Part shown: positions 13,744 through 64,000 of the stretch, one piece after another
Position numbering within the stretch: position 1 is the stretch's first letter
How the letters are laid out: every line of letters starts with the position of its first letter
From: Effusibacillus dendaii
GTDB lineage: Bacteria; Bacillota; Bacilli; Tumebacillales; Effusibacillaceae
Reading direction: 5' to 3'
Length of the DNA stretch: 64,000 nt
NCBI RefSeq assembly: GCF_015097055.1
Contig: NZ_AP023366.1
Coordinates: forward strand, 3,127,001-3,191,000
Program-made: the position numbers and the translations under genes
The notes under the pieces: generated by a model
Told to the model about the DNA's origin: nothing
The model's database searches: none
Seen by the model: the letters and a program-made list of their open reading frames with translations, nothing else

Positions 13744-13894
13744 TGAAAGTTCAAAAATTGTTGATGCAGGACACCACGCTGGCGGAATTGCGGAAGTTGT
13801 GTCCGGAAGCGAAGCGACTGGCTGGAAATCGCAAAGAAATACAATTTGTTCGGTCTGTACTGATTGCCGCGATTGGCGAGAAAAGGGGTTGGAT

Positions 13895-13924
13895 TTGCGG
13901 ACTTTATACCCAACAGGGTATAAT
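13895..13924 (+). promoter_or_regulatory. cstR promoter with CstR operator
   Basis: The perfect half-site palindrome ATACCCAACAGGGTAT (13906-13921) overlaps TATAAT at 13919-13924; a TTGCGG -35 candidate lies at 13895-13900. This is the layout expected of an autorepressed persulfide-sensor gene. Confidence 0.8.
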
Positions 13925-13964
13925 GAAGGATACAAACCACAAGCCAAACAGGGGGTGATACAGC

Positions 13965-14225
13965 ATGGAATACAATGGCGCGATGAAAAACCGCCTCCGC
14001 CGGATTGAAGGACAAGTCCGGGGAGTTTTGAGTATGATGGAACAAGAAAAGGACTGCCGCGATGTGGTGACCCAATTGACTGCCATCCGTACCGCTGTCG
14101 ATCGTGCAATCGGTCTTGTGGTAGCCGGGAACCTGGAAGCCTGTATCCGGGACGAACTGGAAAAAGGAAACGACCCGGACAAGGTCATTAAAGAAGCGGT
14201 CGAACTGCTGGTCAAAAGCCGCTAG
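13965..14225 (+). CDS. cstR: CstR-type persulfide-sensing repressor (CsoR/RcnR family), copy 1
   Basis: An 86-aa all-helical DUF156-family repressor. The opening MKNRLRRIEGQVRGVLSMM is the DNA-contact helix of the family. Cysteines lie in EKDCRDVV (residue 31) and NLEACIRDEL (residue 60). The copper sensor CsoR has His in an HLxxC motif; here the residue is Asn (NLEAC), which is the pattern of the sulfane-sulfur sensor CstR, where the two Cys form a di-, tri- or tetrasulfide bridge and release DNA. An operator is in its own promoter. The downstream methyltransferase is likely in the same transcript. A close paralogue lies at 20131. Confidence 0.9.
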   Translation: MEYNGAMKNRLRRIEGQVRGVLSMMEQEKDCRDVVTQLTAIRTAVDRAIGLVVAGNLEACIRDELEKGNDPDKVIKEAVELLVKSR

Positions 14226-14243
14226 CGGATAAGGAGGGATAAG

Positions 14244-14804
14244 ATGGCGCACCGGTTTGATCCGAAAAAAGCGCATAAACTGGATAATCCGGCGCGGCGT
14301 AAACTGCTGCCGCCGGAAGAAATTCTGGCCCCACTTGCGATCGGTGGGCGGGATGATGTCGCGGATATCGGTGTAGGGCTGGGCTATTTTGCGATTCCGG
14401 CTGCCAAAATGACAAGGGGTACTGTCTATGGAGTGGACGTGGAGCCGCAGATGCTTGGCCTTCTTAAAACAAAAGCCGCAGAGGCCGGTGTTGTGAATAT
14501 TGAACCGATCCTAAGCGACGCGGAAAATATTAGCCTGCCCGATGCGAGCGTCGATAAGGTTTTCTGTTCGCTTGTTCTGCATGAACTGGCGAATTTGGAA
14601 AAAGGGTTGGCGGAAATCAGGAGAATTCTCCGCCCGGGCGGAAAGCTGCTCGTGCTTGAGTGGGAAAAGAAAGAGACGGAATCCGGACCGCCTGTCGAGG
14701 AACGGATCGATGCAATGGATCTGGAGACCGGAATTCAAGCGTTCGGGTTTCTGACCCGGGTGATTCGTCCGAATCCAAATCACTACATCATTCTCGGGGA
14801 ATAG
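14244..14804 (+). CDS. Class I SAM-dependent methyltransferase
   Basis: A 186-aa methyltransferase of the UbiE/Methyltransf_11 type. The SAM-binding motif I is VADIGVGLGYFAIPAA, an acidic strand-2 end follows in VYGVDVEPQML, and motif post-I/II is in DKVFCSLVLHEL. The proline/aromatic NPNHYIILGE tail ends the protein. The acceptor substrate is unknown. It starts 18 bases after cstR with an AAGGAGGG site, so it is under the persulfide repressor. A detoxifying role (thiol or sulfide methylation) is possible but not shown. A strong terminator follows. Confidence 0.82.
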   Translation: MAHRFDPKKAHKLDNPARRKLLPPEEILAPLAIGGRDDVADIGVGLGYFAIPAAKMTRGTVYGVDVEPQMLGLLKTKAAEAGVVNIEPILSDAENISLPDASVDKVFCSLVLHELANLEKGLAEIRRILRPGGKLLVLEWEKKETESGPPVEERIDAMDLETGIQAFGFLTRVIRPNPNHYIILGE

Positions 14805-14818
14805 GATCAAATTCGTCG

Positions 14819-14859
14819 AAAGCCAAACCCTCACCGGAAAGCGGTGAGGGTTTGGCTTT
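14819..14859 (+). terminator. Terminator after the cstR-methyltransferase unit
   Basis: A perfect 18-bp stem, AAAGCCAAACCCTCACCG with its exact complement, around the 5-base loop GAAAG. It is followed by a short repeat of TTTGGC but no long U-tract. It also lies just beyond the stop of the convergent small gene. Confidence 0.75.
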
Positions 14860-14879
14860 GGCTTTGGCGGCATGGACAT

Positions 14880-15050
14880 CTATTTAGCAGAATGGTATTC
14901 AATTTCCACTTCAAGATGTGGATGAGTTTCTATTTTGTATTGACCGTCGGGACAAGCTCTGGAGTGATAATGACCGCGATCATAAGATACCATTTTTTTA
15001 TGACAATAGGGGCAAACCTCACGAATCCAGGAAATAAATTTGTTAAGCAC
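14880..15050 (-). CDS. Small Cys/His-rich protein, possible zinc ribbon
   Basis: A 56-aa protein on the minus strand, starting at GTG (15050) behind an AGGAGGG site 7 bases away. It has VCPYCHKK near residue 13, then DRGHYHSRACPDG, and a His/Glu-rich tail. The three Cys plus several His suggest metal binding, but the second knuckle has only one Cys. I do not recognise a family. It is divergent from the operator-controlled rhodanese operon and shares that intergenic region, so it could be coregulated. Confidence 0.65.
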   Translation of the reverse strand: MLNKFISWIREVCPYCHKKMVSYDRGHYHSRACPDGQYKIETHPHLEVEIEYHSAK

Positions 15051-15151
15051 AATTCTACCCTCCTATTAATCCAATAAGATTACTTGGATATTATTCTACC
15101 ACATTTCAAAACAAAATTCATCGATTGGCCGATGATAATTATTATTTGGTG

Positions 15152-15196
15152 TTGACAAATATTTTATAAGCATTATAATAATACCCAGTAGGGTAT
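15152..15196 (+). promoter_or_regulatory. CstR-controlled promoter of the rhodanese gene
   Basis: TTGACA (15152-15157) and TATAAT (15174-15179) are 16 bases apart. The operator ATACCCAGTAGGGTAT (15181-15196) starts 1 base after the -10, where a bound repressor would cover the start site. Confidence 0.85.
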
Positions 15197-15226
15197 ATAT
15201 CCCGTATCGTATCAAGGAAAGAAGGG

Positions 15227-15619
15227 ATGCGTGTGGTTTGGTTGCAGTATCTTATTTTTGCAGTCGTGGTTCTGTTACTCATTAAGAAATTCTTGCCGGT
15301 TAAAGGTTTAGAAAATCTCACCCCCAGAGAACTTGAACAACTGTTAGAATCTCCAAAGGGAAGCCAATTTATTGATGTGAGAGAAAAACATGAATTTACT
15401 GGGGGACACATAAAAGGTTTTAAAAATATACCTCTAAGTGAATTCAGCAAAAGGGTGCAAGAAATGGATCGCAACAGTCGGGTGGTATTAACCTGTCAAA
15501 GCGGTATGAGAAGTCGCAGAGCTGCAAGTATTTTAAAGAAAAATGGTTTCCAATCAATCAGCCATCTTAAATCCGGGGTTTCCGGTTGGCATAGCAGTTT
15601 TGTAAAAGGGAACAAATAA
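15227..15619 (+). CDS. Membrane-anchored rhodanese
   Basis: A 130-aa single-domain sulfurtransferase. An N-terminal hydrophobic helix (VVWLQYLIFAVVVLLLI, residues 3-19) anchors it, then the rhodanese fold has FIDVREKHEFTGGHI and the active-site loop CQSGMRSRR near residue 88, whose Cys carries the persulfide. Rhodaneses move sulfane sulfur between thiols. The start is set by GGAAAGAAGGG. It is the first gene after a CstR operator and is followed by its own terminator, so it is expressed separately from the next rhodanese. Confidence 0.88.
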   Translation: MRVVWLQYLIFAVVVLLLIKKFLPVKGLENLTPRELEQLLESPKGSQFIDVREKHEFTGGHIKGFKNIPLSEFSKRVQEMDRNSRVVLTCQSGMRSRRAASILKKNGFQSISHLKSGVSGWHSSFVKGNK

Positions 15620-15655
15620 AAGGAGACAGGAACATGCATGAGCCTTCTCCTTTTT
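15618..15655 (+). terminator. Terminator after the membrane rhodanese
   Basis: AAAAGGAGA pairs with TCTCCTTTT, with a partly paired interior around ATGCAT and ending in TTTTT. The stem overlaps the end of the rhodanese gene by two bases. Confidence 0.75.
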
Positions 15656-15669
15656 AAATAAACTAATAA

Positions 15670-15685
15670 ATACCCGGTTGGGTAT
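15670..15685 (+). promoter_or_regulatory. CstR operator of the main persulfide operon
   Basis: ATACCCGGTTGGGTAT, 20 bases upstream of the second rhodanese start codon. It matches the other operators in both half-sites. A -10-like TAATAA lies just before it; the -35 is unclear. Confidence 0.75.
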
Positions 15686-15705
15686 TAAGGGGGTCAATTC
15701 CTGCA

Positions 15706-16026
15706 ATGTTTCGAACAAGTCCCAGGATCATAAACATCATTCCTTTGGATGTAAAGGAAAAGCTAAAAAAAGGAGAAAAGGTAAACATCATCGATGTTCG
15801 TGAGAACGAGGAAGTCGCTCAAGGGAAAATTCCCGGTGCCAAGCATATTCGACTTTCGGAAATTCCTTCACGATTACATGAGATCGATCCAAATGTTGAG
15901 ACGATTATGGTATGCCGAAGCGGAAACCGCAGCGCAAAAGCTTGTGAATTTCTTATGAATCAAGGATATCGCAATGTGAAAAATATGATGGGCGGTATGA
16001 ACGCCTGGGAAGGCGATGTTGAATAA
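15706..16026 (+). CDS. Cytoplasmic rhodanese
   Basis: A 106-aa single-domain rhodanese. IIDVRENEEVAQGKIPGAKH leads to the active-site loop CRSGNRSAK near residue 70; unlike the upstream paralogue it has no membrane helix. It opens the main CstR operon, whose genes continue to about 20.05 kb on the same strand with short gaps. Its likely role is persulfide transfer to the TusA and dioxygenase proteins downstream. Confidence 0.9.
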   Translation: MFRTSPRIINIIPLDVKEKLKKGEKVNIIDVRENEEVAQGKIPGAKHIRLSEIPSRLHEIDPNVETIMVCRSGNRSAKACEFLMNQGYRNVKNMMGGMNAWEGDVE

Positions 16027-16074
16027 CGTCCCAAAAATTTTCTCAAATAAAAATGATAAGGAGAGATTTGTATT

Positions 16075-16470
16075 ATGGCACGTCGTGTGGCAATTATTGC
16101 ATCAAACGGTGGATTGGATTCTGCGTACAAAGTATTAAACATTGCAACTGCAGCAGCGGCAACAGATGCAGAGGTGGCCATTTTCTTTACTTTTGAAGCG
16201 CTTGCTATTATTCACAAGGACTCTGCCGCCATGCTTACCATGGGACCTGGCAAAGAGCATTACATGGAAGGATTTAAGCGTGCAAACGTACCTTCCATTC
16301 AAGAACTGTTGCAGATTGCAATGGAAAGCGGAGTCAAGATGATCGCTTGTCAAATGACAATGGACGTAACAGGTATGACCAAAGACATGTTTATCGAAGG
16401 GGTTGAGGTAGGAGGCGCCGTTACATTCTTGGACTTTGCATATGACGCGGATGCAACTGTAACATTCTAA
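16075..16470 (+). CDS. DsrE-family sulfur-relay protein
   Basis: A 131-aa DsrE/DsrF-like protein. The N-terminus (VAIIASNGGLDSAYKVLN) and FFTFEAL strand fit the DsrE fold, and Cys in MIACQMTMDVTG near residue 92 is at the position used for sulfur binding in DsrE2-type proteins. Members carry sulfane sulfur in relay pathways. It lies in the same order as the B. subtilis yrk operon, whose yrkE is a DsrE-like gene. It probably hands sulfur to TusA. A good GGAGAG site precedes the ATG. Confidence 0.85.
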   Translation: MARRVAIIASNGGLDSAYKVLNIATAAAATDAEVAIFFTFEALAIIHKDSAAMLTMGPGKEHYMEGFKRANVPSIQELLQIAMESGVKMIACQMTMDVTGMTKDMFIEGVEVGGAVTFLDFAYDADATVTF

Positions 16471-16527
16471 TGCGCCACGGGGAGCTTAACTGCCTCTACA
16501 CCCTTCTTGGAGAGGGGGATCAAGGGC

Positions 16528-17310
16528 TTGACGACCGGATTGTTTATTACGTTGTTCGTTCTGGGGTTTATCGGTTCGTTTTTATCAGGAATGTTGGGGA
16601 TAGGGGGAGCGATTATCAATTACCCCATGCTGCTATACATTCCGGCAGCGTTAGGGGTAGGGAGTTTTACGGCTCATGAGGTTTCCGGCATTCTTGCGGT
16701 ACAAGTGTTTTTCGCTACTCTTTCAGGCGTATTGGCGCTTAGGAAAGAAAAACTGATTAATTTCAAGCTTGTGACATACATGGGGATTTCCATCATTGTG
16801 GGAAGCTTTTTGGGGGGCTACGGGGGAAAATTCCTTTCCGGTCATGCAATCAATCTGGTTTATGCAGTGCTGGCCACGATTGCTGCAGTCATGATGTTTA
16901 TTCCAAAGAAAGGGATGGAAGATGAATCAGTTGAAGAGCTGCAATTTAACCGAATTGTGGCAATCATTTCGGCATTTGCAGTAGGGGCTGCCTCCGGGAT
17001 TGTGGGGGCTGGAGGAGCCTTCCTTCTAGTGCCGATCATGCTGGTGATCCTTAAAATTCCGACTCGTGTAACAATTGCCTCCTCGCTCGCCGTAACCTTT
17101 ATTTCATCAATTGGTTCCATGGTGGGAAAACTGATGGCAGGCCATATTCCGTTTTGGTCTACAGTTGTTATCGTTGTTGCCAGTGTTTTGGCAGCGCCGC
17201 TCGGAGCGAAATTGAGCAAACGGGTCAATACAAAAATCCTTAAGGTGATCTTGTCGCTACTGATTGTAGCGACAACCGTAAAAATATGGATTGATATTCT
17301 GTTCAGCTAA
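16528..17310 (+). CDS. yrkJ: TauE/SafE-type sulfite/sulfonate exporter
   Basis: A 260-aa membrane protein of the TauE/SafE family with about eight hydrophobic segments. The family repeats are recognisable: FLSGMLGIGGAIINYPML near the N-terminus and its counterpart AASGIVGAGGAFLLVPIML near residue 160. In persulfide operons such permeases export sulfite made by the dioxygenase; that role is inferred. I chose the TTG at 16528 because AGAGGGGG lies 9 bases upstream; an in-frame TTG at 16507 lacks a site. It matches yrkJ of the B. subtilis yrk operon in length and context. Confidence 0.82.
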   Translation: MTTGLFITLFVLGFIGSFLSGMLGIGGAIINYPMLLYIPAALGVGSFTAHEVSGILAVQVFFATLSGVLALRKEKLINFKLVTYMGISIIVGSFLGGYGGKFLSGHAINLVYAVLATIAAVMMFIPKKGMEDESVEELQFNRIVAIISAFAVGAASGIVGAGGAFLLVPIMLVILKIPTRVTIASSLAVTFISSIGSMVGKLMAGHIPFWSTVVIVVASVLAAPLGAKLSKRVNTKILKVILSLLIVATTVKIWIDILFS

Positions 17311-17327
17311 AGAAAGGAGTAAGCATT

Positions 17328-17900
17328 GTGAGCACCATTGCAGTTGACAAAAGCATAGATTGTAAAGGTTTGTCTTGTCCGATGCCGATTGTAAGAACCA
17401 AGAAGGCAATGGAAGAAATTCTTCCCGGACAGGTGTTGGAAGTCGAGGCTACAGACCCTGGTTCTGTGTCAGATGTTAAAAGCTGGGCGGAAAGAACCGG
17501 ACATCAGTTCATTGGAACGGAACAACACGAAGAAGTATTTAAGCACTATATCCGAAAATCGGACCCGAGTGAAGTGAAACCGGAACGGAATCACCCTCAT
17601 GTAGTTACGAATGAGGAACTTCAGCAAAAGTTGGGGGAAAACCCCGTTATTATAGACGTTCGCGAACCTGCCGAGTACGCTTTCGGGCATATCCCGGGAG
17701 CCAGATCCATCCCGTTTGGTCGGCTTGAGGAAACAATAGAAGAGTTAAGAGCTCTTGGTGAGACAGAAATTCATGTAATTTGCCGTACGGGAACTCGAAG
17801 TGACGTAGCTTGTCAAATTCTTACGGAAAAAGGCTTTCAGAACGTAAAAAACGTAATGCCTGGCATGTCACAATGGAGCGGTCCGATAAATAAAAAATAA
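17328..17900 (+). CDS. yrkF: TusA-rhodanese fusion sulfurtransferase
   Basis: A 190-aa two-domain protein. The TusA domain (residues 1-75) has DCKGLSCPMPIVRTKKA with the sulfur-carrier Cys17. The rhodanese domain (about 92-190) has VIIDVREPAEYAFGHIPGAR and the active-site loop CRTGTRSD with Cys142. The two persulfide sites in one chain allow direct transfer. The arrangement is that of B. subtilis YrkF; staphylococcal CstA has an extra rhodanese. It starts 17 bases after the TauE gene with AAAGGAG. Confidence 0.92.
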   Translation: MSTIAVDKSIDCKGLSCPMPIVRTKKAMEEILPGQVLEVEATDPGSVSDVKSWAERTGHQFIGTEQHEEVFKHYIRKSDPSEVKPERNHPHVVTNEELQQKLGENPVIIDVREPAEYAFGHIPGARSIPFGRLEETIEELRALGETEIHVICRTGTRSDVACQILTEKGFQNVKNVMPGMSQWSGPINKK

Positions 17901-17922
17901 CCACGGAAAGGGTGACGAAAAC

Positions 17923-19056
17923 ATGGCAGTAAAAACCATAACTGCGAAAGAACTTCACAGCAGAATAAATGGAGGAAATCCCGTATTTATTCTGGATGTA
18001 AGAAACCCGGATGAATATAACGACTGGAAAATCGAAGGGAAAGAACTTAAATCGATAAACATTCCCTACTTTGATTTCTTGGATGAGGATGAAAAAAACT
18101 ATAAGCACCTGCCCAAGGATACTGAAATTGCAGTGGTTTGCGCAAAAGGCGGTGCAGCCTTGATGGTCGCGGAAATTCTTGATGAAAAAGGCTACGACGT
18201 AAGCTACCTGGAAGAAGGGATGCTCGAATGGAGCCGTTTCTATCATCCGGTAACGATTCATGTAGGGGAAGACATGAAGTTGATTCAAGTAAATCGTTTG
18301 GCAAAGGGATGCTTGTCCTACATGGTAATTTCTAAAGGGAACGCCATGATTGTAGACCCTAACCGTCACATCAATGAGTATCTGGAACTGGCGGAAAGGG
18401 AGAATGCAAAAATCATGCATATTATGGATACGCATCTCCATGCTGACCATATCTCCGGAGGTCAGGAACTGGCGGAACAAACAGGGGCTACTTACTATAT
18501 TTCGTCCAGTGAGATGCAGGGAAGCGATATCCCTTATGAACCACTGGAAAGTCATAAAGAAATCAAGTTTGGAGATGTGCAAGTGAAAGTTTTGGCGATT
18601 CCAACCCCCGGTCATACACCGGGAAGCGTGTCCTTCTTGGTAAACGACAAATTTCTTCTGTCAGGGGATACCATTTTTGTAGGTGGGCTGGGAAGACCTG
18701 ACCTCGGAGGAAAAGCTCGGGAATGGGCTCAATCGTTGTACGATACAGTGTTCCAAACGATTGCTGGATTGTCGGATGACACGATGGTTCTCCCAACGCA
18801 CTATGCGGATATCAAAGAAATTAATGAAGGCGGCTTTGTCGGGGCAACGCTGGGAGAAATTCGCCAAAGCAATGAAATCATGCGTACAGAAGACCGTGAA
18901 GAGTTTACGGAAAAAGTGGCTGGTACAGCGGGAGCGGCTACACCGCCTAATTACGAGGAGATAGTAGAAATAAACCGTGGAACTGTGGAGGTTACAGCCG
19001 ATAAAGCAACGGAGTTGGAAATTGGACCAAATCGTTGTGCTGTTCACCATAGCTAA
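17923..19056 (+). CDS. yrkH: Rhodanese-persulfide dioxygenase fusion (ETHE1-type MBL)
   Basis: A 377-aa fusion. Residues 1-105 form a rhodanese domain with FILDVRNPDEYNDW and active Cys73 in CAKGGAALM. The MBL dioxygenase follows: MDTHLHADHISGG (HxHxDH from residue 171), PTPGHTPGSVSF, SGDTIFVGGLGRPDL and LPTHYAD, which provide the mononuclear-iron ligands of ETHE1-type enzymes. It oxidises glutathione, bacillithiol or CoA persulfide to sulfite, with the rhodanese probably presenting or removing sulfur. The order here, rhodanese then dioxygenase, is the reverse of staphylococcal CstB. It is the counterpart of yrkH. Confidence 0.9.
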   Translation: MAVKTITAKELHSRINGGNPVFILDVRNPDEYNDWKIEGKELKSINIPYFDFLDEDEKNYKHLPKDTEIAVVCAKGGAALMVAEILDEKGYDVSYLEEGMLEWSRFYHPVTIHVGEDMKLIQVNRLAKGCLSYMVISKGNAMIVDPNRHINEYLELAERENAKIMHIMDTHLHADHISGGQELAEQTGATYYISSSEMQGSDIPYEPLESHKEIKFGDVQVKVLAIPTPGHTPGSVSFLVNDKFLLSGDTIFVGGLGRPDLGGKAREWAQSLYDTVFQTIAGLSDDTMVLPTHYADIKEINEGGFVGATLGEIRQSNEIMRTEDREEFTEKVAGTAGAATPPNYEEIVEINRGTVEVTADKATELEIGPNRCAVHHS

Positions 19057-19077
19057 TAAAGAAAATAGGAGGAGGTT

Positions 19078-19317
19078 TTGAAAAAGATGAACACGGATGT
19101 TTTTGTAGATGCAAAAGGGCTGTCCTGTCCGATGCCGATTGTAAAAGCCAAAAAAGCTATTGATGCGCTTCAGCCGGGACAAATTATGGAGTTGGAAGCA
19201 ACTGACAAAGGATCAGTCAATGATTTTCAGAGCTGGGTGAAACAAACCAAGCATGAAATGATCAAGATGGAAGAAGACAACGGAGTCTATCGGTTTTTTG
19301 TAAAAAAAGGACAATAA
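19078..19317 (+). CDS. yrkI: TusA-family sulfur carrier
   Basis: A 76-79-aa TusA domain. DAKGLSCPMPIVKAKKAI holds the carrier Cys, and LEATDKGSVNDFQSW is almost the same as in the TusA half of the gene two positions upstream, so the two probably arose by duplication. Two starts are possible: TTG at 19078, with a 5-base spacing from the first AGGAGG, or ATG at 19087, at 11 bases. It is the counterpart of yrkI and carries sulfane sulfur on a cysteine. Confidence 0.9.
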   Translation: MKKMNTDVFVDAKGLSCPMPIVKAKKAIDALQPGQIMELEATDKGSVNDFQSWVKQTKHEMIKMEEDNGVYRFFVKKGQ

Positions 19318-19330
19318 TGAGGTGATTGGG

Positions 19331-19714
19331 ATGTTCCATTATACAGTGGAAACCAGTAAGAGTGTGGAGGATGCTGTGCAAGCGGTGGAGGAGAGCTTAA
19401 AGAAGTACAAGTTCGGCGTGCTGTGGCATTTTAACATCACCTCCAAGCTTCAGGAAAAAGGCGTTGATTTTACGCAACCGTATCGGGTGCTTGAAGTGTG
19501 CAACCCTGTGGAAGCGGCAAGAGTATTGTCACAGAACGGGTTAATGGGATATTTCCTTCCCTGCAAAGTTGTTGTCTACGAAGAGAACGGAAAAACCAAA
19601 ATTGGCCTTCCGAAGCCTACCGTTCTGGTGGATGTTGTCAATGACCCCGGCCTGAAGGAAATTGCTCAAGAAGTGGAAAATACGTTAATTCAAGCCATTA
19701 ACGACGCCAAATAA
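19331..19714 (+). CDS. DUF302 domain protein
   Basis: A 127-aa protein with the DUF302 pattern: MFHYTVETSKSVEDAVQAVE, KKYKFGVLWHFN, YRVLEVCNPVEAARVLSQNG and GYFLPCKVVVYEENGKTKIG. Its two conserved Cys (VCNP and LPCK) are present. DUF302 genes often accompany sulfur-oxidation and thiol-stress loci; the biochemical role is not known. I start at the ATG at 19331 because the family begins there and AGGTGA precedes it. It is in the persulfide operon, 36 bases before the UGA-containing thioredoxin. Confidence 0.88.
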   Translation: MFHYTVETSKSVEDAVQAVEESLKKYKFGVLWHFNITSKLQEKGVDFTQPYRVLEVCNPVEAARVLSQNGLMGYFLPCKVVVYEENGKTKIGLPKPTVLVDVVNDPGLKEIAQEVENTLIQAINDAK

Positions 19715-19750
19715 TTAAGATGTCAAATAACAAGATAAGGTGGGATTGAC

Positions 19751-20053
19751 ATGGAATCTGTAAATGAATCCAAATTTGACCAACTGCTTCAATCTGACCG
19801 GCCTACACTCGCTTTCTTCACCGCAGATTGGTGACCTTATTGCAAACGACTGGCTCCGGTCGTAGAAAAGCTTGAAAGTCAATATCCAGAAGTTCATTTT
19901 GTTTATGTGGATTCGGATGATCAACCGAGTCTCCCGCAAAGATATGGAGTTTTGGGTTTACCGACATTAATTCTTTTCAAACAAGGGAACCCCCAAAATC
20001 CACTGGTTGGATTTCAGCCGGAGGCTGCTATTAAGTCATATCTTGAAGGATAA
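19751..20053 (+). CDS. Thioredoxin-family protein with in-frame UGA at the first catalytic position (candidate selenoprotein)
   Basis: The frame encodes 100 residues if UGA at 19832-19834 is read through. It starts at ATG 19751 behind AAGGTGGG and ends at TAA 20051. Around the UGA the protein reads FFTADW-U-PYCKRLAPVVEKLE, i.e. the thioredoxin W-C-x-x-C site with Sec as residue 28 and Cys as residue 31. Downstream are VYVDSDDQP, GVLGLPTLILFKQG with the conserved cis-Pro (LPT), and VGFQPE. Everything after the UGA is well conserved, so this is not a decayed gene. A hairpin with G in its loop lies 18 bases after the UGA. It is the last gene of the CstR operon and would reduce disulfides or persulfides. 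A plain Cys-to-stop mutation is the alternative. Confidence 0.85.
19846..19863 (+). promoter_or_regulatory. Candidate bacterial SECIS hairpin in the thioredoxin gene
   Basis: ACGACT pairs with GGTCGT (6 bp, one G-U) around the loop GGCTCC. The first loop base, a G, is 18 nt after the UGA, inside the 16-37 nt range known for bacterial SECIS elements, which need a G among the first loop bases. It is inside the coding frame, as in bacteria generally. Confidence 0.6.
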
Positions 20054-20086
20054 CAGTTGACGCCCGGCATTGGGCGTCTTGTTATC
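20049..20086 (+). terminator. Terminator of the persulfide operon
   Basis: GATAAC pairs with GTTATC and GACGCCC with GGGCGTC around GGCATT, giving a two-part stem overlapping the thioredoxin stop codon. It lacks a long U-tract but clearly closes the operon. Confidence 0.65.
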
Positions 20087-20130
20087 TATTTGGAGGGGGG
20101 ATTTGGGGACATTAAAGGAGAGTGAGATCA

Positions 20131-20391
20131 ATGCAGTACGACGATGCAATTAAAAACCGGCTTCGCCGAATTGAAGGCCAAATAAGAGGCGTTTACACAA
20201 TGATGGATTCGGAAAAAGAGTGCAAAGATGTTGTGACGCAACTACAAGCGATTCGATCTGCTGTTGATCGTACAATTGGACTGTTGGTAGCAAGCAATTT
20301 AGAATCATGTATTCGTATGGAACTAAAAAAAGGCAACCAGCCAGATAATGTAATAAGAGAAGCAGTCGATTTACTGGTTAAGAGTCGCTAA
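20131..20391 (+). CDS. cstR: CstR-type persulfide-sensing repressor, copy 2
   Basis: An 86-aa paralogue of the protein at 13965, with the same length and ending in VDLLVKSR. The DNA-contact opening KNRLRRIEGQIRGVYTMM is kept, as are Cys31 (EKECKDVV) and Cys60 in NLESCIRMEL; Asn again replaces the His of copper sensors. I chose the ATG at 20131 over a GTG at 20122 because AAAGGAG is 10 bases before it. No obvious ATACCC/GGGTAT operator is upstream, so it may not repress itself. It could form heteromers with copy 1 or sense a different sulfur or selenium species. Confidence 0.88.
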   Translation: MQYDDAIKNRLRRIEGQIRGVYTMMDSEKECKDVVTQLQAIRSAVDRTIGLLVASNLESCIRMELKKGNQPDNVIREAVDLLVKSR

Positions 20392-20700
20392 AAGACAATG
20401 ATTCACCGAGTTGTTGACTCGGCTAAATGGAAAGGAAAAAATATGAAACGATTTTGGAAAAGTTTGTGACTATCACAAAAAATACTGCTCTTGTTAGGAG
20501 TCGGTTATAGTGCTTTTTGGATTACTCAGCAGTTGTTGCAACGATAAATGATGTAATGCATACATCATACACTGCTTTCCGGAATCCCATTAAACGGTTT
20601 TTGCAGTGTGACATGGTGCAGACCTTTGGATTTCCAACGTGTATGAACATGAACAGGCCTAAGTGACATAGTAGTGATGGATTACGGGAGGCGCACGCTA
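20392..20700. other. Gap with a hairpin and a UGA-containing micro-ORF
   Basis: CCGAGT/ACTCGG (20407-20423) forms a 6-bp hairpin after cstR copy 2. The micro-ORF at 20443-20547 is listed separately. From 20548 to 20700 I see no gene and no clear promoter. Confidence 0.4.
20443..20547 (+). CDS. Possible 34-residue membrane peptide with in-frame UGA
   Basis: ATG at 20443 follows AAAGGA by 8 bases. The frame reads MKRFWKSL-UGA-LSQKILLLLG and continues through a hydrophobic stretch to LLQR and TAA at 20545. If UGA (20467-20469) is Sec, residue 9 sits just before a single membrane helix. A weak hairpin follows, with loop TGTTA about 23 nt after the UGA. It sits between two stronger selenoprotein candidates. 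It may equally be a short unrelated frame or a remnant; no family is recognised. Confidence 0.3.
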
Positions 20701-23689: not shown

Positions 23690-23990
23690 GTTCCTGAATA
23701 ATTTATCCAATTGTTCTTCAAAAAAATCACACATTTTTGTCGTAATCCTTGCTCTAGGGATTCTCGCAGGGATTGTAAATTCACAAAAGGGTAAAAAAGA
23801 CATGGCTTCTGGAAGTCCTGAAACCGACACAAATCAATCAGAGATTGCCGTTTTGCCGCGACCAGGCTAATAGGGCTCCTGATTTTGTTTTGAACGATCT
23901 GGATGGAAAGCAGGTAAAGATAAGCGAGTTAAAAGGGGAAAAGCTGCTGCTGAATTTCTGGGTTTCATGGTGTCCGCCGTGTAAAGCGGG
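23690..23990 (+). pseudogene. TlpA/ResA-type thioredoxin, frameshifted 5' fragment
   Basis: A signal-anchor (HIFVVILALGILAGIV) and linker in one frame give way near 23866 to the TlpA body in another: APDFVLNDLDGKQVKISELK and the active site FWVSWCPPCK. Directly after CPPCKAG the sequence turns into a membrane protein. The first frame has no good start codon. So a single-base slip and a deletion removed the second half. An intact paralogue lies at 27688. Confidence 0.75.
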
Positions 23991-24512
23991 ATTTTTGACC
24001 CTTTCCTCAAAGTGGATCGGATTGTTTGCGGGAATCGGTTTGTCTTCATGGATTGGAAGCGGAGTTGGAATGCTTTATTTCGTAATTCGAATCTTTCAAT
24101 ACCGGATTCCATTGATGACCCTGCTTGATATTGTAGTTCCGCCATTTCTGTTAGGCGTGAGCGCATATTCAATAATCGTGGCAGACTACGGATCAGAACC
24201 GATTTGATTTGGGGAACGATAATGGAAGGGGAAAAGTTTCATCCTGTCAAACTCTATAGGGCAATATTTTTTGCAGTCAGCGGAGGTATCCTTTTGTCAA
24301 AAATACGTTTGCAATCTTGTGGAAGCAGAGGTTCACTAGGGTTACTGGCATTTGGGACAGGGGGCCTACTAATTTCATTGGGTGAGTATAATCAGTATCT
24401 CTGGCTTTATTTGGCTCCCATGCAGTGGGCGTACCTTATTATTGCTGTTGTGGGGATTTTTTTGTTTATGAGACAGCTACGTGAGGCGACATTAAATCGG
24501 GGTGAAAAATGA
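23991..24512 (+). pseudogene. Prolipoprotein diacylglyceryl transferase (Lgt)-like remnant
   Basis: WIGLFAGIGLSSWIGSGVG and LLDIVVPPFLLGVSAYSII read as Lgt-like membrane segments. After a frameshift near 24190 the next frame carries PTDLIWGT and FHPVKLYRA, matching the Lgt region PTD..WG and HPxxLYE, then more helices to NRGEK. About 170 codons remain and the N-terminus is replaced by the TlpA fragment. The final stop overlaps the next start (ATGA), so the remnant may still be cotranscribed with the two-component system. Confidence 0.62.
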
Positions 24513-63141: not shown

Positions 63142-63186
63142 TTGACAGATAAACAGATTAGGTCGTAAACTTACCCCTATAGGTAT
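63142..63186 (+). promoter_or_regulatory. Promoter with CsoR/CstR-like operator upstream of the efflux adaptor
   Basis: TTGACA at 63142-63147, a weak -10 region near 63166, then TTACCCCTATAGGTAT (63171-63186), a near-palindrome close to the operator of CsoR-family repressors. A second half-match, ATACCCATAGGGGTTT, lies at 63241-63256 just inside the coding region. Confidence 0.55.
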
Positions 63187-63204: not shown

Positions 63205-64000
63205 GTGGCATTTGCAAAAAAAATTTTTTTGTTCCTCGTAATACCCATAGGGGTTTTTCTGGCCGTTCTGACAGGTGCTTTTTCTTCGAAAATAGCGCCC
63301 GGAATGACAGAGCCGGTAACACAAAAAGTTTCCGGGATCAAGTGGGAGGAAGCGCAGAAAGTTGCTGCCAAAAACGGTGTTACATTGCCGGGGACGATTG
63401 TGGCTGACAAAGAGGCAAAGGTGGCAAGCCGTATTTTGGCATCCGTAAAACAAATCCTGGTTGCCAAAGGGGACCGCGTCAAAAAAGGGGATCCCTTGAT
63501 TTTGCTGGATTCCGCACAAGTAGGCGCTTACTCAAATTTGGCCGAAGCGGCTGTACAGGAAGCGGTTGCAGCCAAGAGTCAAAGTGAGCAGTCGGTCAAA
63601 CAGGCGATGGCGAACGTTCAGTCAGCGGAAGCCAAATTTCAAAATGTAGAGTCCTCTTATCGGCGAATGCTGAATCTTTATCAAAACGGGGCTGTAAGCA
63701 AGCAAGATTTTGAAGACACGCAAATGGCTTATCAACAGGCACAGGCGCAACTGGATCAGGCGCAGGCTGCTTTAAAAGCAGAACAGGCTATGCAGCAGGC
63801 CGTTTCCGCCAAAATGGATCAGGCGCAAGCTTCCTATGGAGCGGCTGTGGACAATTTAAACCAGGCAACCATCACGGCGCCGTTTGATGGAGTTGTCACC
63901 AACAAACTGGTTGAAACGGGAGATATGGCGTCACCTGGCTCCCCGTTGATTGTGATCGAGAAAGAGCCCTATCTGCTGGAGGTCTATGCGGATGAAAGGT
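63205..64000 (+). CDS. Membrane-fusion (HlyD/RND periplasmic adaptor-like) protein, 3' end outside window
   Basis: The first 265 residues of an adaptor. A membrane-anchor (IFLFLVIPIGVFLAVLTGAF) is followed by a biotinyl-lipoyl half (SVKQILVAKGDRVKKGDPLI), a long coiled-coil hairpin rich in Gln and Ala (residues about 110-215) and the second half-motif (ATITAPFDGVVTNKLVETGD). It would link an inner-membrane exporter to the cell surface. GTG 63205 follows GGGAGGGA; an overlapping GTG at 63203 is out of frame. CsoR/CstR-like operators suggest control by metal or persulfide. Confidence 0.88.
   Translation, partial: MAFAKKIFLFLVIPIGVFLAVLTGAFSSKIAPGMTEPVTQKVSGIKWEEAQKVAAKNGVTLPGTIVADKEAKVASRILASVKQILVAKGDRVKKGDPLILLDSAQVGAYSNLAEAAVQEAVAAKSQSEQSVKQAMANVQSAEAKFQNVESSYRRMLNLYQNGAVSKQDFEDTQMAYQQAQAQLDQAQAALKAEQAMQQAVSAKMDQAQASYGAAVDNLNQATITAPFDGVVTNKLVETGDMASPGSPLIVIEKEPYLLEVYADER

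Follow-up and report, generated by a model that had tools for sequence, protein, structure and literature searches.

Within the 64,000 nucleotides of the Effusibacillus dendaii genome analysed here (contig NZ_AP023366.1, positions 3,127,001 to 3,191,000; hereafter the window, in whose numbering all unassigned positions are given), a thioredoxin-like reading frame at the end of a run of sulfur-relay genes is crossed by a UGA codon in its active site. The locus therefore raises two questions: whether the UGA is a stop or a codon for selenocysteine (Sec), and what a Sec thioredoxin would do among such genes. The best explanation, with a probability of roughly 0.62, is a Sec thioredoxin whose UGA is read through SelB and a hairpin, which is encoded in a CstR-type operon and which acts in persulfide reduction.

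The trxU gene and its product

The gene, named trxU here, is located on the forward strand at 19751–20053 and runs for 100 codons from ATG to TAA. Translation and comparison with homologues place its in-frame UGA (19832–19834), the candidate Sec codon, at the first active-site position of a WUPYC motif. With TGA translated as U, the product reads MESVNESKFDQLLQSDRPTLAFFTADWUPYCKRLAPVVEKLESQYPEVHFVYVDSDDQPSLPQRYGVLGLPTLILFKQGNPQNPLVGFQPEAAIKSYLEG and contains this single UGA. With U entered as C, it matches the Pfam Thioredoxin family (PF00085) at 84.2 bits (cut-off 23.5) and misses the cut-off of the canonical TrxA model TIGR01068 (81.4 versus 96.8 bits). The translation and the Pfam match confirm an earlier, sequence-only reading of this DNA, which had described a thioredoxin frame whose sole UGA replaces the first active-site cysteine. 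PF00085 was also matched by all 12 UGA-form members of alignment A2, the 12 of the 20 UGA-form loci (see below) that were scanned. A search of solved structures with the product confirmed the thioredoxin family and nothing beyond it. The named genome contigs, scanned with the trxU protein, gave 21 loci with best-segment identities of at most 53%, and a plasmid search gave 639 records with identities below 60% throughout, the 30 listed ones being trxA/thioredoxin or unannotated. Elsewhere in the window, the reading frame at 23845–24207 has a TlpA/ResA-type thioredoxin-like start (WVSWCPPC) and then diverges; it is possibly a frameshifted gene.

Conservation of the UGA codon

UGA-form thioredoxins were found in 20 genomes of the class, 19 besides the trxU genome itself (G000): G006, G031, G035, G041, G079, G097, G184, G191, G232, G244, G261, G321, G329, G332, G341, G347, G354, G377 and G388. 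Among the 14 genomes of the order, G006, which belongs to another family, carries a homologue with 68% identity and the same UGA. A two-row profile searched against 398 class genomes (E ≤ 1e-20) gave 89 matches, 12 of them with an in-frame stop, which in each case is a single TGA at the trxU UGA codon. In a profile search of 398 genomes of the phylum, TGA was present in one of 50 matches, trxU itself; distant members may have been missed there because the profile was made from the trxU subclade. A DNA pattern around the UGA, which can detect UGA forms only, was found in 14 of 397 class genomes, compared to one match for the reversed-pattern control. Finally, a 12-row profile yielded 113 matches in 370 class genomes (E ≤ 1e-24), with an in-frame stop in 18, TGA at the same codon in each and a TAG in addition in one. 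The 18 TGA matches rank first (E ≤ 7.3e-32) and are followed by a gap to 2.4e-28 and 95 stop-free matches; U was written as C in this profile so that UGA was not itself favoured, though the rows were UGA genes. The three draws of class genomes (398, 397 and 370) overlap.

The active site is A-[DN]-W-U-P-x-C in 16 of the 20 loci and S-N-G-U-G-P-C in G321, G329 and G347. The G079 copy (locus L190, contig C3, 97629–97898, minus strand) has a TAG at the Trp codon, followed by UPAC, with the rest conserved, which points to a broken member or to an error in the sequence. A UGA restricted to this strain, with homologues otherwise decayed, had been named as an outcome that would defeat the selenoprotein proposal; instead, the codon recurs in 19 other genomes, in 18 of which the frame is intact except for the UGA. 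In G002, which is of the same genus as the trxU genome, the operon is conserved and the thioredoxin is reduced to residues 53–100 (L022, 1501–1644), directly after the DUF302 gene, a deletion having taken away the UGA and the hairpin. The gene is dispensable, as the loss of the UGA half in G002 and the second stop in G079 show. No close Cys orthologue of the UGA form was seen in the sample. The best TGA-free matches are TrxA-like; among these, L044 (WCPPC) falls with the TrxA-type rows and L045, a WCPDC paralogue in G006, is distant.

Downstream of the UGA, dN/dS ranges from 0.07 to 0.23 in 18 of the 22 closest pairs, those with an estimable dS (0.213 for G000 and G006), with values that are rough since dS exceeds 1 in several pairs. 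Such purifying selection past the UGA points to translation beyond it. In the phylogenetic tree, 15 UGA rows are split from 68 of 69 Cys rows (mostly WCGPC) with a support of 91/76, a split recovered in 90% of 200 bootstrap trees. The exception, L045, groups with the Sec clade but has a very long branch (2.85). The tree leaves out the L022 remnant and G041, G079, G321, G329 and G347, the last five being outside A2 as well, and many of its forks are open because about 100 columns serve 84 rows. A single origin of the Sec form fits this tree, without being proven by it.

Selenocysteine machinery

The trxU genome, assembled as one contig of 3.45 Mb (98.34% complete), encodes SelB (400.9 bits, above cut-off), a tRNA-Sec (66.4 bits) with the anticodon TCA (UCA in RNA), SelA and, adjoining SelA, a SelD that has its own single in-frame TGA (AGUGCKIG). 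With all four components in place, the second outcome named as fatal to the proposal, a genome devoid of Sec machinery, was not encountered. Both the selA-selD locus and the selB locus are located away from trxU. The selB gene directly follows a thioredoxin-reductase-like reading frame, whose end overlaps the selB start by ATGA (L001, 503–3393); this overlap suggests that the genome expresses its Sec translation and thioredoxin reduction functions together.

The distribution of selA was compared with that of the UGA form in the class sample of 398 genomes rather than in the order sample of 14, which is uninformative since selA is present in 14 of 14. A selA match above the curated cut-off was found in 85 of the 398 genomes, and all 20 UGA-form genomes are among these 85 (hypergeometric P 5.6e-15, with kinship ignored, a value that overstates the case because the UGA-form loci are related). 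This coincidence also bears on the notion that the UGA is read as Trp or Cys through suppression or a change of code. A second small reading frame with an in-frame TGA in the window (20443–20547, described below) is what would speak for it; the trxU TGA replaces the catalytic Cys rather than a Trp, and selA is present in every UGA-form genome, which leaves such decoding barely credible.

The SECIS-type hairpin

Bacterial SECIS (bSECIS) elements, as set out in the accessible text of PMC13188914, have a loop of 3–9 nt with a G in its first two positions, a stem of 4–16 bp, a distance of 16–37 nt from the UGA and an MFE of at most −7.5. A hairpin of this type (ACGACU-GGCUCC-GGUCGU, 19846–19863, forward strand) starts 12 nt after the trxU UGA, and its first loop G is at +18 for a six-nucleotide loop or at +19 for the four-nucleotide loop that results if the inner G-C pair forms. 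The position check, together with hairpins at all 20 UGA-form loci, bears out what had been noted from the trxU sequence, a hairpin 12 nt past the UGA with its loop G in the range required.

The hairpin search covered loops of 3–8 nt and stems of at least 6 pairs, and the MFE limit was not applied as a filter; the printed MFE values of the UGA-form hairpins range from −8.9 to −19.7. With at most two G-U pairs allowed, a hairpin was found in 12 of the first 15 UGA loci, compared to 2.09 expected from synonymous shuffles and to 7 of 69 Cys homologues; with stems of at least 7 pairs, the counts are 10 of 15 and 1 of 69. With at most three G-U pairs, all 20 UGA loci have a hairpin, where synonymous shuffles would give 4.39, as do 15 of 69 Cys homologues; this limit was chosen after the data had been seen, three loci having failed at two. 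The five loci included only in the later test have one or two G-U pairs in their printed hairpins. The 69 Cys loci are a subset of the Cys homologues found.

Two layouts are present. In the first (G000, G006, G031, G035, G041, G341, G377 and G388), a stem of 7–9 pairs carries a four-nucleotide loop at +19; in the second (12 loci), a stem of 6–9 pairs carries a GGU loop at +24. One stem pair of the first layout is G-C in three and A-U in three of six sequences. Covariation is modest relative to shuffles, the observed score being reached in 26 of 500 for alignment A3 and in 133 of 500 for A4; A3 omits G341, whose hairpin letters are identical to those of G377, and both alignments omit G041, G079, G321, G329 and G347. 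Folding energy separates Sec from Cys loci on average only (mean z −1.19 versus −0.15; Mann-Whitney P 0.0004); for single loci p exceeds 0.05 in 13 of 15, and the trxU hairpin by itself is unremarkable (p 0.18). The test was based on geometry because folding energy alone is too weak. Support for the trxU hairpin as a bSECIS element comes from its family and not from its own folding energy.

A true stop at the UGA would make trxU a pseudogene or the source of a 27-residue product. Most genes do treat UGA as a stop, and such decay would suit the G002 remnant and the second stop in G079; this reading is at odds with a UGA kept at the same codon in 20 genomes, with the purifying selection that follows it, with the hairpin and with the coincidence with selA. 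The stop or pseudogene reading is highly improbable and was rejected on the conservation of the UGA, the selection past it and the selA coincidence. By the comparative data, the UGA is most likely decoded as an amino acid and the protein very probably has Sec in place of the key Cys; we consider it nearly certain that trxU encodes a selenoprotein.

The persulfide operon

The genes around trxU are all on the forward strand. A sigma-70 consensus promoter (TTGACA-N16-TATAAT, 15152–15179) matches at 12 of 12 positions and is the only site scoring above 10/12, within a total of 13 promoter-like sites that is not above chance (10.3 in shuffles, sd 3.5). Directly after its −10 box is a CstR-type palindrome (ATACCC-AGTA-GGGTAT, 15181–15196), and similar palindromes precede the second rhodanese gene (ATACCC-GGTT-GGGTAT, 15670–15685) and the first CsoR/CstR-family gene (ATACCC-AACA-GGGTAT, 13906–13921); all three are putative operators. 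The window contains eight palindrome sites with at most two mismatches, a number reached in none of 100 shuffles. Two imperfect operator-like palindromes are found far downstream, 70 bp apart, at 63171–63186 (two mismatches) and 63241–63256 (one mismatch), and are possibly a further target of the two repressors.

The first CsoR/CstR-family repressor gene is located at 13965–14225. It is followed, by domain matches, by genes for a rhodanese with an N-terminal hydrophobic stretch (15227–15619), a single-domain rhodanese (15706–16026), a DsrE-family sulfur carrier (16075–16470), a TauE/SafE-type exporter (16507–17310), a TusA-rhodanese fusion (17328–17900), a protein with rhodanese and metallo-beta-lactamase folds that is probably a CstB-like persulfide dioxygenase (PDO; 17923–19056), TusA (19078–19317) and a DUF302 protein (19322–19714). 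After trxU, an intrinsic-terminator-like hairpin of 8 pairs (20059–20078) is followed by TTGTTATC; the region 13800–20500 has 12 terminator-like sites, compared to a mean of 6.7 (sd 2.8) in shuffles. The second repressor gene (20131–20391; PF02583) lies after this hairpin, and its frame also opens at a GTG at 20122. The positions of promoter, operator and terminator fit the earlier description of a CstR operon that ends in trxU. The features of a CstR-type operon, namely a repressor, operator palindromes and sulfurtransferase and PDO-like genes, are all present at the locus. The repressors belong to family PF02583, with every NCBIfam subgroup model, including the CsoR-family matches of the first copy, below cut-off; from the gene context and from their Cys positions, we take both to be probable CstR proteins and not some other kind of CsoR-family repressor.

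After the second repressor gene is a small reading frame (20443–20547, forward strand; MKRFWKSL-UGA-LSQKILLLLGVGYSAFWITQQLLQR) with an in-frame TGA, for which no convincing relative was seen outside the trxU genome among the loci compared. Its TGA may reflect recoding, a lesion or chance, which are indistinguishable here.

Gene context of the UGA form in other genomes

The surroundings of the 20 loci were searched with the window proteins, the Sel proteins of the trxU genome and a PhnD-like protein as queries; absences carry little weight because region lengths vary from 3 to 20 kb. Within these regions, a cst-type operon surrounds the UGA-form gene in the trxU genome only. Two DsrE genes are located downstream of the homologue in G006, a DUF302 gene and a CstB-like gene are 5 kb from the gene in G244, and a CsoR-family gene is near it in G035. 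WCGPC thioredoxins are also found in such settings, in a cst-type locus of G208 and beside DsrE and TusA-rhodanese genes in G244. At 11 of the 20 loci, neither a cst-type nor a selenium-type neighbour was matched in regions of 3 to 20 kb. One of these, in G354, has an Rrf2-family regulator upstream and a reading frame read as a TauE-like transporter, which was not matched by the window TauE and has a weak NCBIfam match. The persulfide-operon setting thus holds for the trxU locus itself and, with such varied contexts, does not extend to the family as a general trait.

One genus has the gene in a selenium island, about 3–10 kb from selD, selB and selA, in five genomes (G097, G232, G321, G329 and G347). 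A PhnD-like binding protein, SelD and SelB are present in all five islands and SelA in the three regions that are long enough; in the other two genomes, SelA is within about 10 kb by contig position. The PhnD-like protein matches a 'putative selenate ABC transporter' model below cut-off. At L191, L192 and L193, the PhnD-like gene directly precedes the Sec thioredoxin gene. Near L191 (G321), a Sulf_transp membrane protein resembles YedE/TsuA and has a YedE/FdhT match below cut-off, and similar reading frames are found in G329 and G347. CstB-like, TusA and TauE genes are located 5–7 kb from the gene in G347, and G321 and G329 have a TauE.

These islands, with their possible selenate transporter and, in three genomes, the YedE/FdhT-like protein, suggest a role in selenium metabolism, in which the thioredoxin would reduce selenite, selenotrisulfides or selenopersulfides and deliver selenide to SelD; its placement in a persulfide operon would then be due to the overlap of sulfane-sulfur and selenium chemistry. 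Against this, the neighbours of trxU are sulfur-relay genes and the selA-selD and selB loci of its genome are elsewhere; the island is confined to one genus and so may be a single ancestral arrangement, and G347 also has the persulfide-type genes nearby. Selenium metabolism is a rather unlikely primary role. The varied contexts and the thioredoxin domain itself would suit a general Sec thioredoxin that reduces disulfides fast, has no preference for persulfides and is merely co-transcribed. The CstR-type placement within the genus, seen in G000 and in the remnant of G002, and the DsrE neighbours in G006 argue against it, as do the two WCGPC thioredoxin genes that the trxU genome already has, and such a generalist is distinctly unlikely.

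Relation to known thioredoxins and operons

Sec thioredoxins (PF00085, UxxC) are a listed bacterial selenoprotein family, known from Geobacter, Anaeromyxobacter, Carboxydothermus and Treponema among others, according to the portions of PMC13188914, PMC9312934 and PMC1794560 that were available. The trxU clade shares with them the thioredoxin domain and Sec at the N-terminal active-site position. It is set apart, by descriptions rather than by sequences, by its occurrence in Bacilli, its two SECIS layouts and its active sites (WUPxC in 16 of 20, UPAC preceded by a stop in place of Trp in G079, GUGPC in three). PMC7176365 was considered as a Kyrpidia/selenocysteine precedent and dropped; its available text deals with an actinobacterium and its formate dehydrogenases.

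A thioredoxin in a CstR-type cluster has been described before. In the accessible part of PMC9918477, YdfQ is a hypothetical thioredoxin, of a function called unknown, that is encoded in the CstR-like YrkD cluster of Bacillus licheniformis, and thioredoxin is noted to reduce persulfide to H2S. As with trxU, the ydfQ cluster has DsrE, rhodanese, PDO, TusA and TauE; compared by description, it differs in that it adds NreBC, SQR and a second PDO and that YdfQ is not described there as a selenoprotein. The cst/yrk operon (CstR regulon) and the trxU operon likewise share a CsoR-family repressor, rhodanese, TusA, TauE and a CstB-like PDO, whereas the Sec thioredoxin at the end, DUF302 and the second repressor copy distinguish the latter. 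The claim of the sequence-only reading that no case with this context had been described therefore stands for the Sec form and not for the link between thioredoxin and CstR; with YdfQ already described, the novelty lies in the Sec form and in the clade that carries it. In a literature search at the level mostly of titles and abstract openings, with thin coverage of subscription journals, no Sec thioredoxin in a persulfide operon and no mostly WUPxC Sec thioredoxin clade in Bacilli was found.

The nearest experimental parallel to the function proposed for trxU is that of Staphylococcus aureus, where, by the text available of PMC6196236, TrxA, TrxP (WCPDC) and TrxQ reduce the persulfides of CstA-Rhod and PykA, CstA-Rhod is among the persulfide substrates of TrxP, and a trxP trxQ double deletion lags under sulfide stress. 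TrxP resembles trxU in being a small thioredoxin with a WCPxC-type site (WUPYC in trxU) but has Cys at the attacking position; whether it belongs to the cst operon is not stated in that text.

Proposed function

Persulfide reduction is the most likely function of trxU and, we judge, a probable one. As the last gene of its operon, trxU would be expressed when the CstR-type repressor frees the operon for transcription upon build-up of sulfane sulfur, as the promoter, palindromes and terminator suggest. SelB and the Sec-tRNA (UCA), aided by the hairpin, would decode the UGA as Sec at residue 28, a step strongly supported by comparison. The selenolate would then most likely attack the outer persulfide sulfur on the rhodanese, TusA and DsrE proteins of the operon, or alternatively on other persulfidated proteins or small thiols, and sulfide would be released; Cys31 would resolve the Se-S bond and thioredoxin reductase would recharge the protein. 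These last steps are modelled on the thioredoxin mechanism and on persulfide reduction by TrxA, TrxP and TrxQ of S. aureus, and Sec would presumably speed the reaction.

A more speculative proposal, which we regard as improbable, combines both chemistries: an obligate-Sec thioredoxin lineage of Bacilli would cleave both S-S and S-Se bonds on sulfur carriers, and a cell under persulfide stress would thereby clear sulfane sulfur and at the same time free selenide for SelD. If true, the selenium supply of the catalyst would depend on its own activity.

Standard gene calling would terminate genes of the trxU type at the UGA, and a 2006 survey, in the part of PMC1794560 available, tabulates only three selenoproteins among Bacillales. 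The two SECIS layouts within one family provide material for how a SECIS element shifts along a gene. The clade would also serve as a natural test of the preference for Sec in persulfide reduction, with the WCGPC thioredoxin in the related cst-type operon of G208 as the comparison, and it ties the use of Sec to the control of reactive sulfur in Bacilli.
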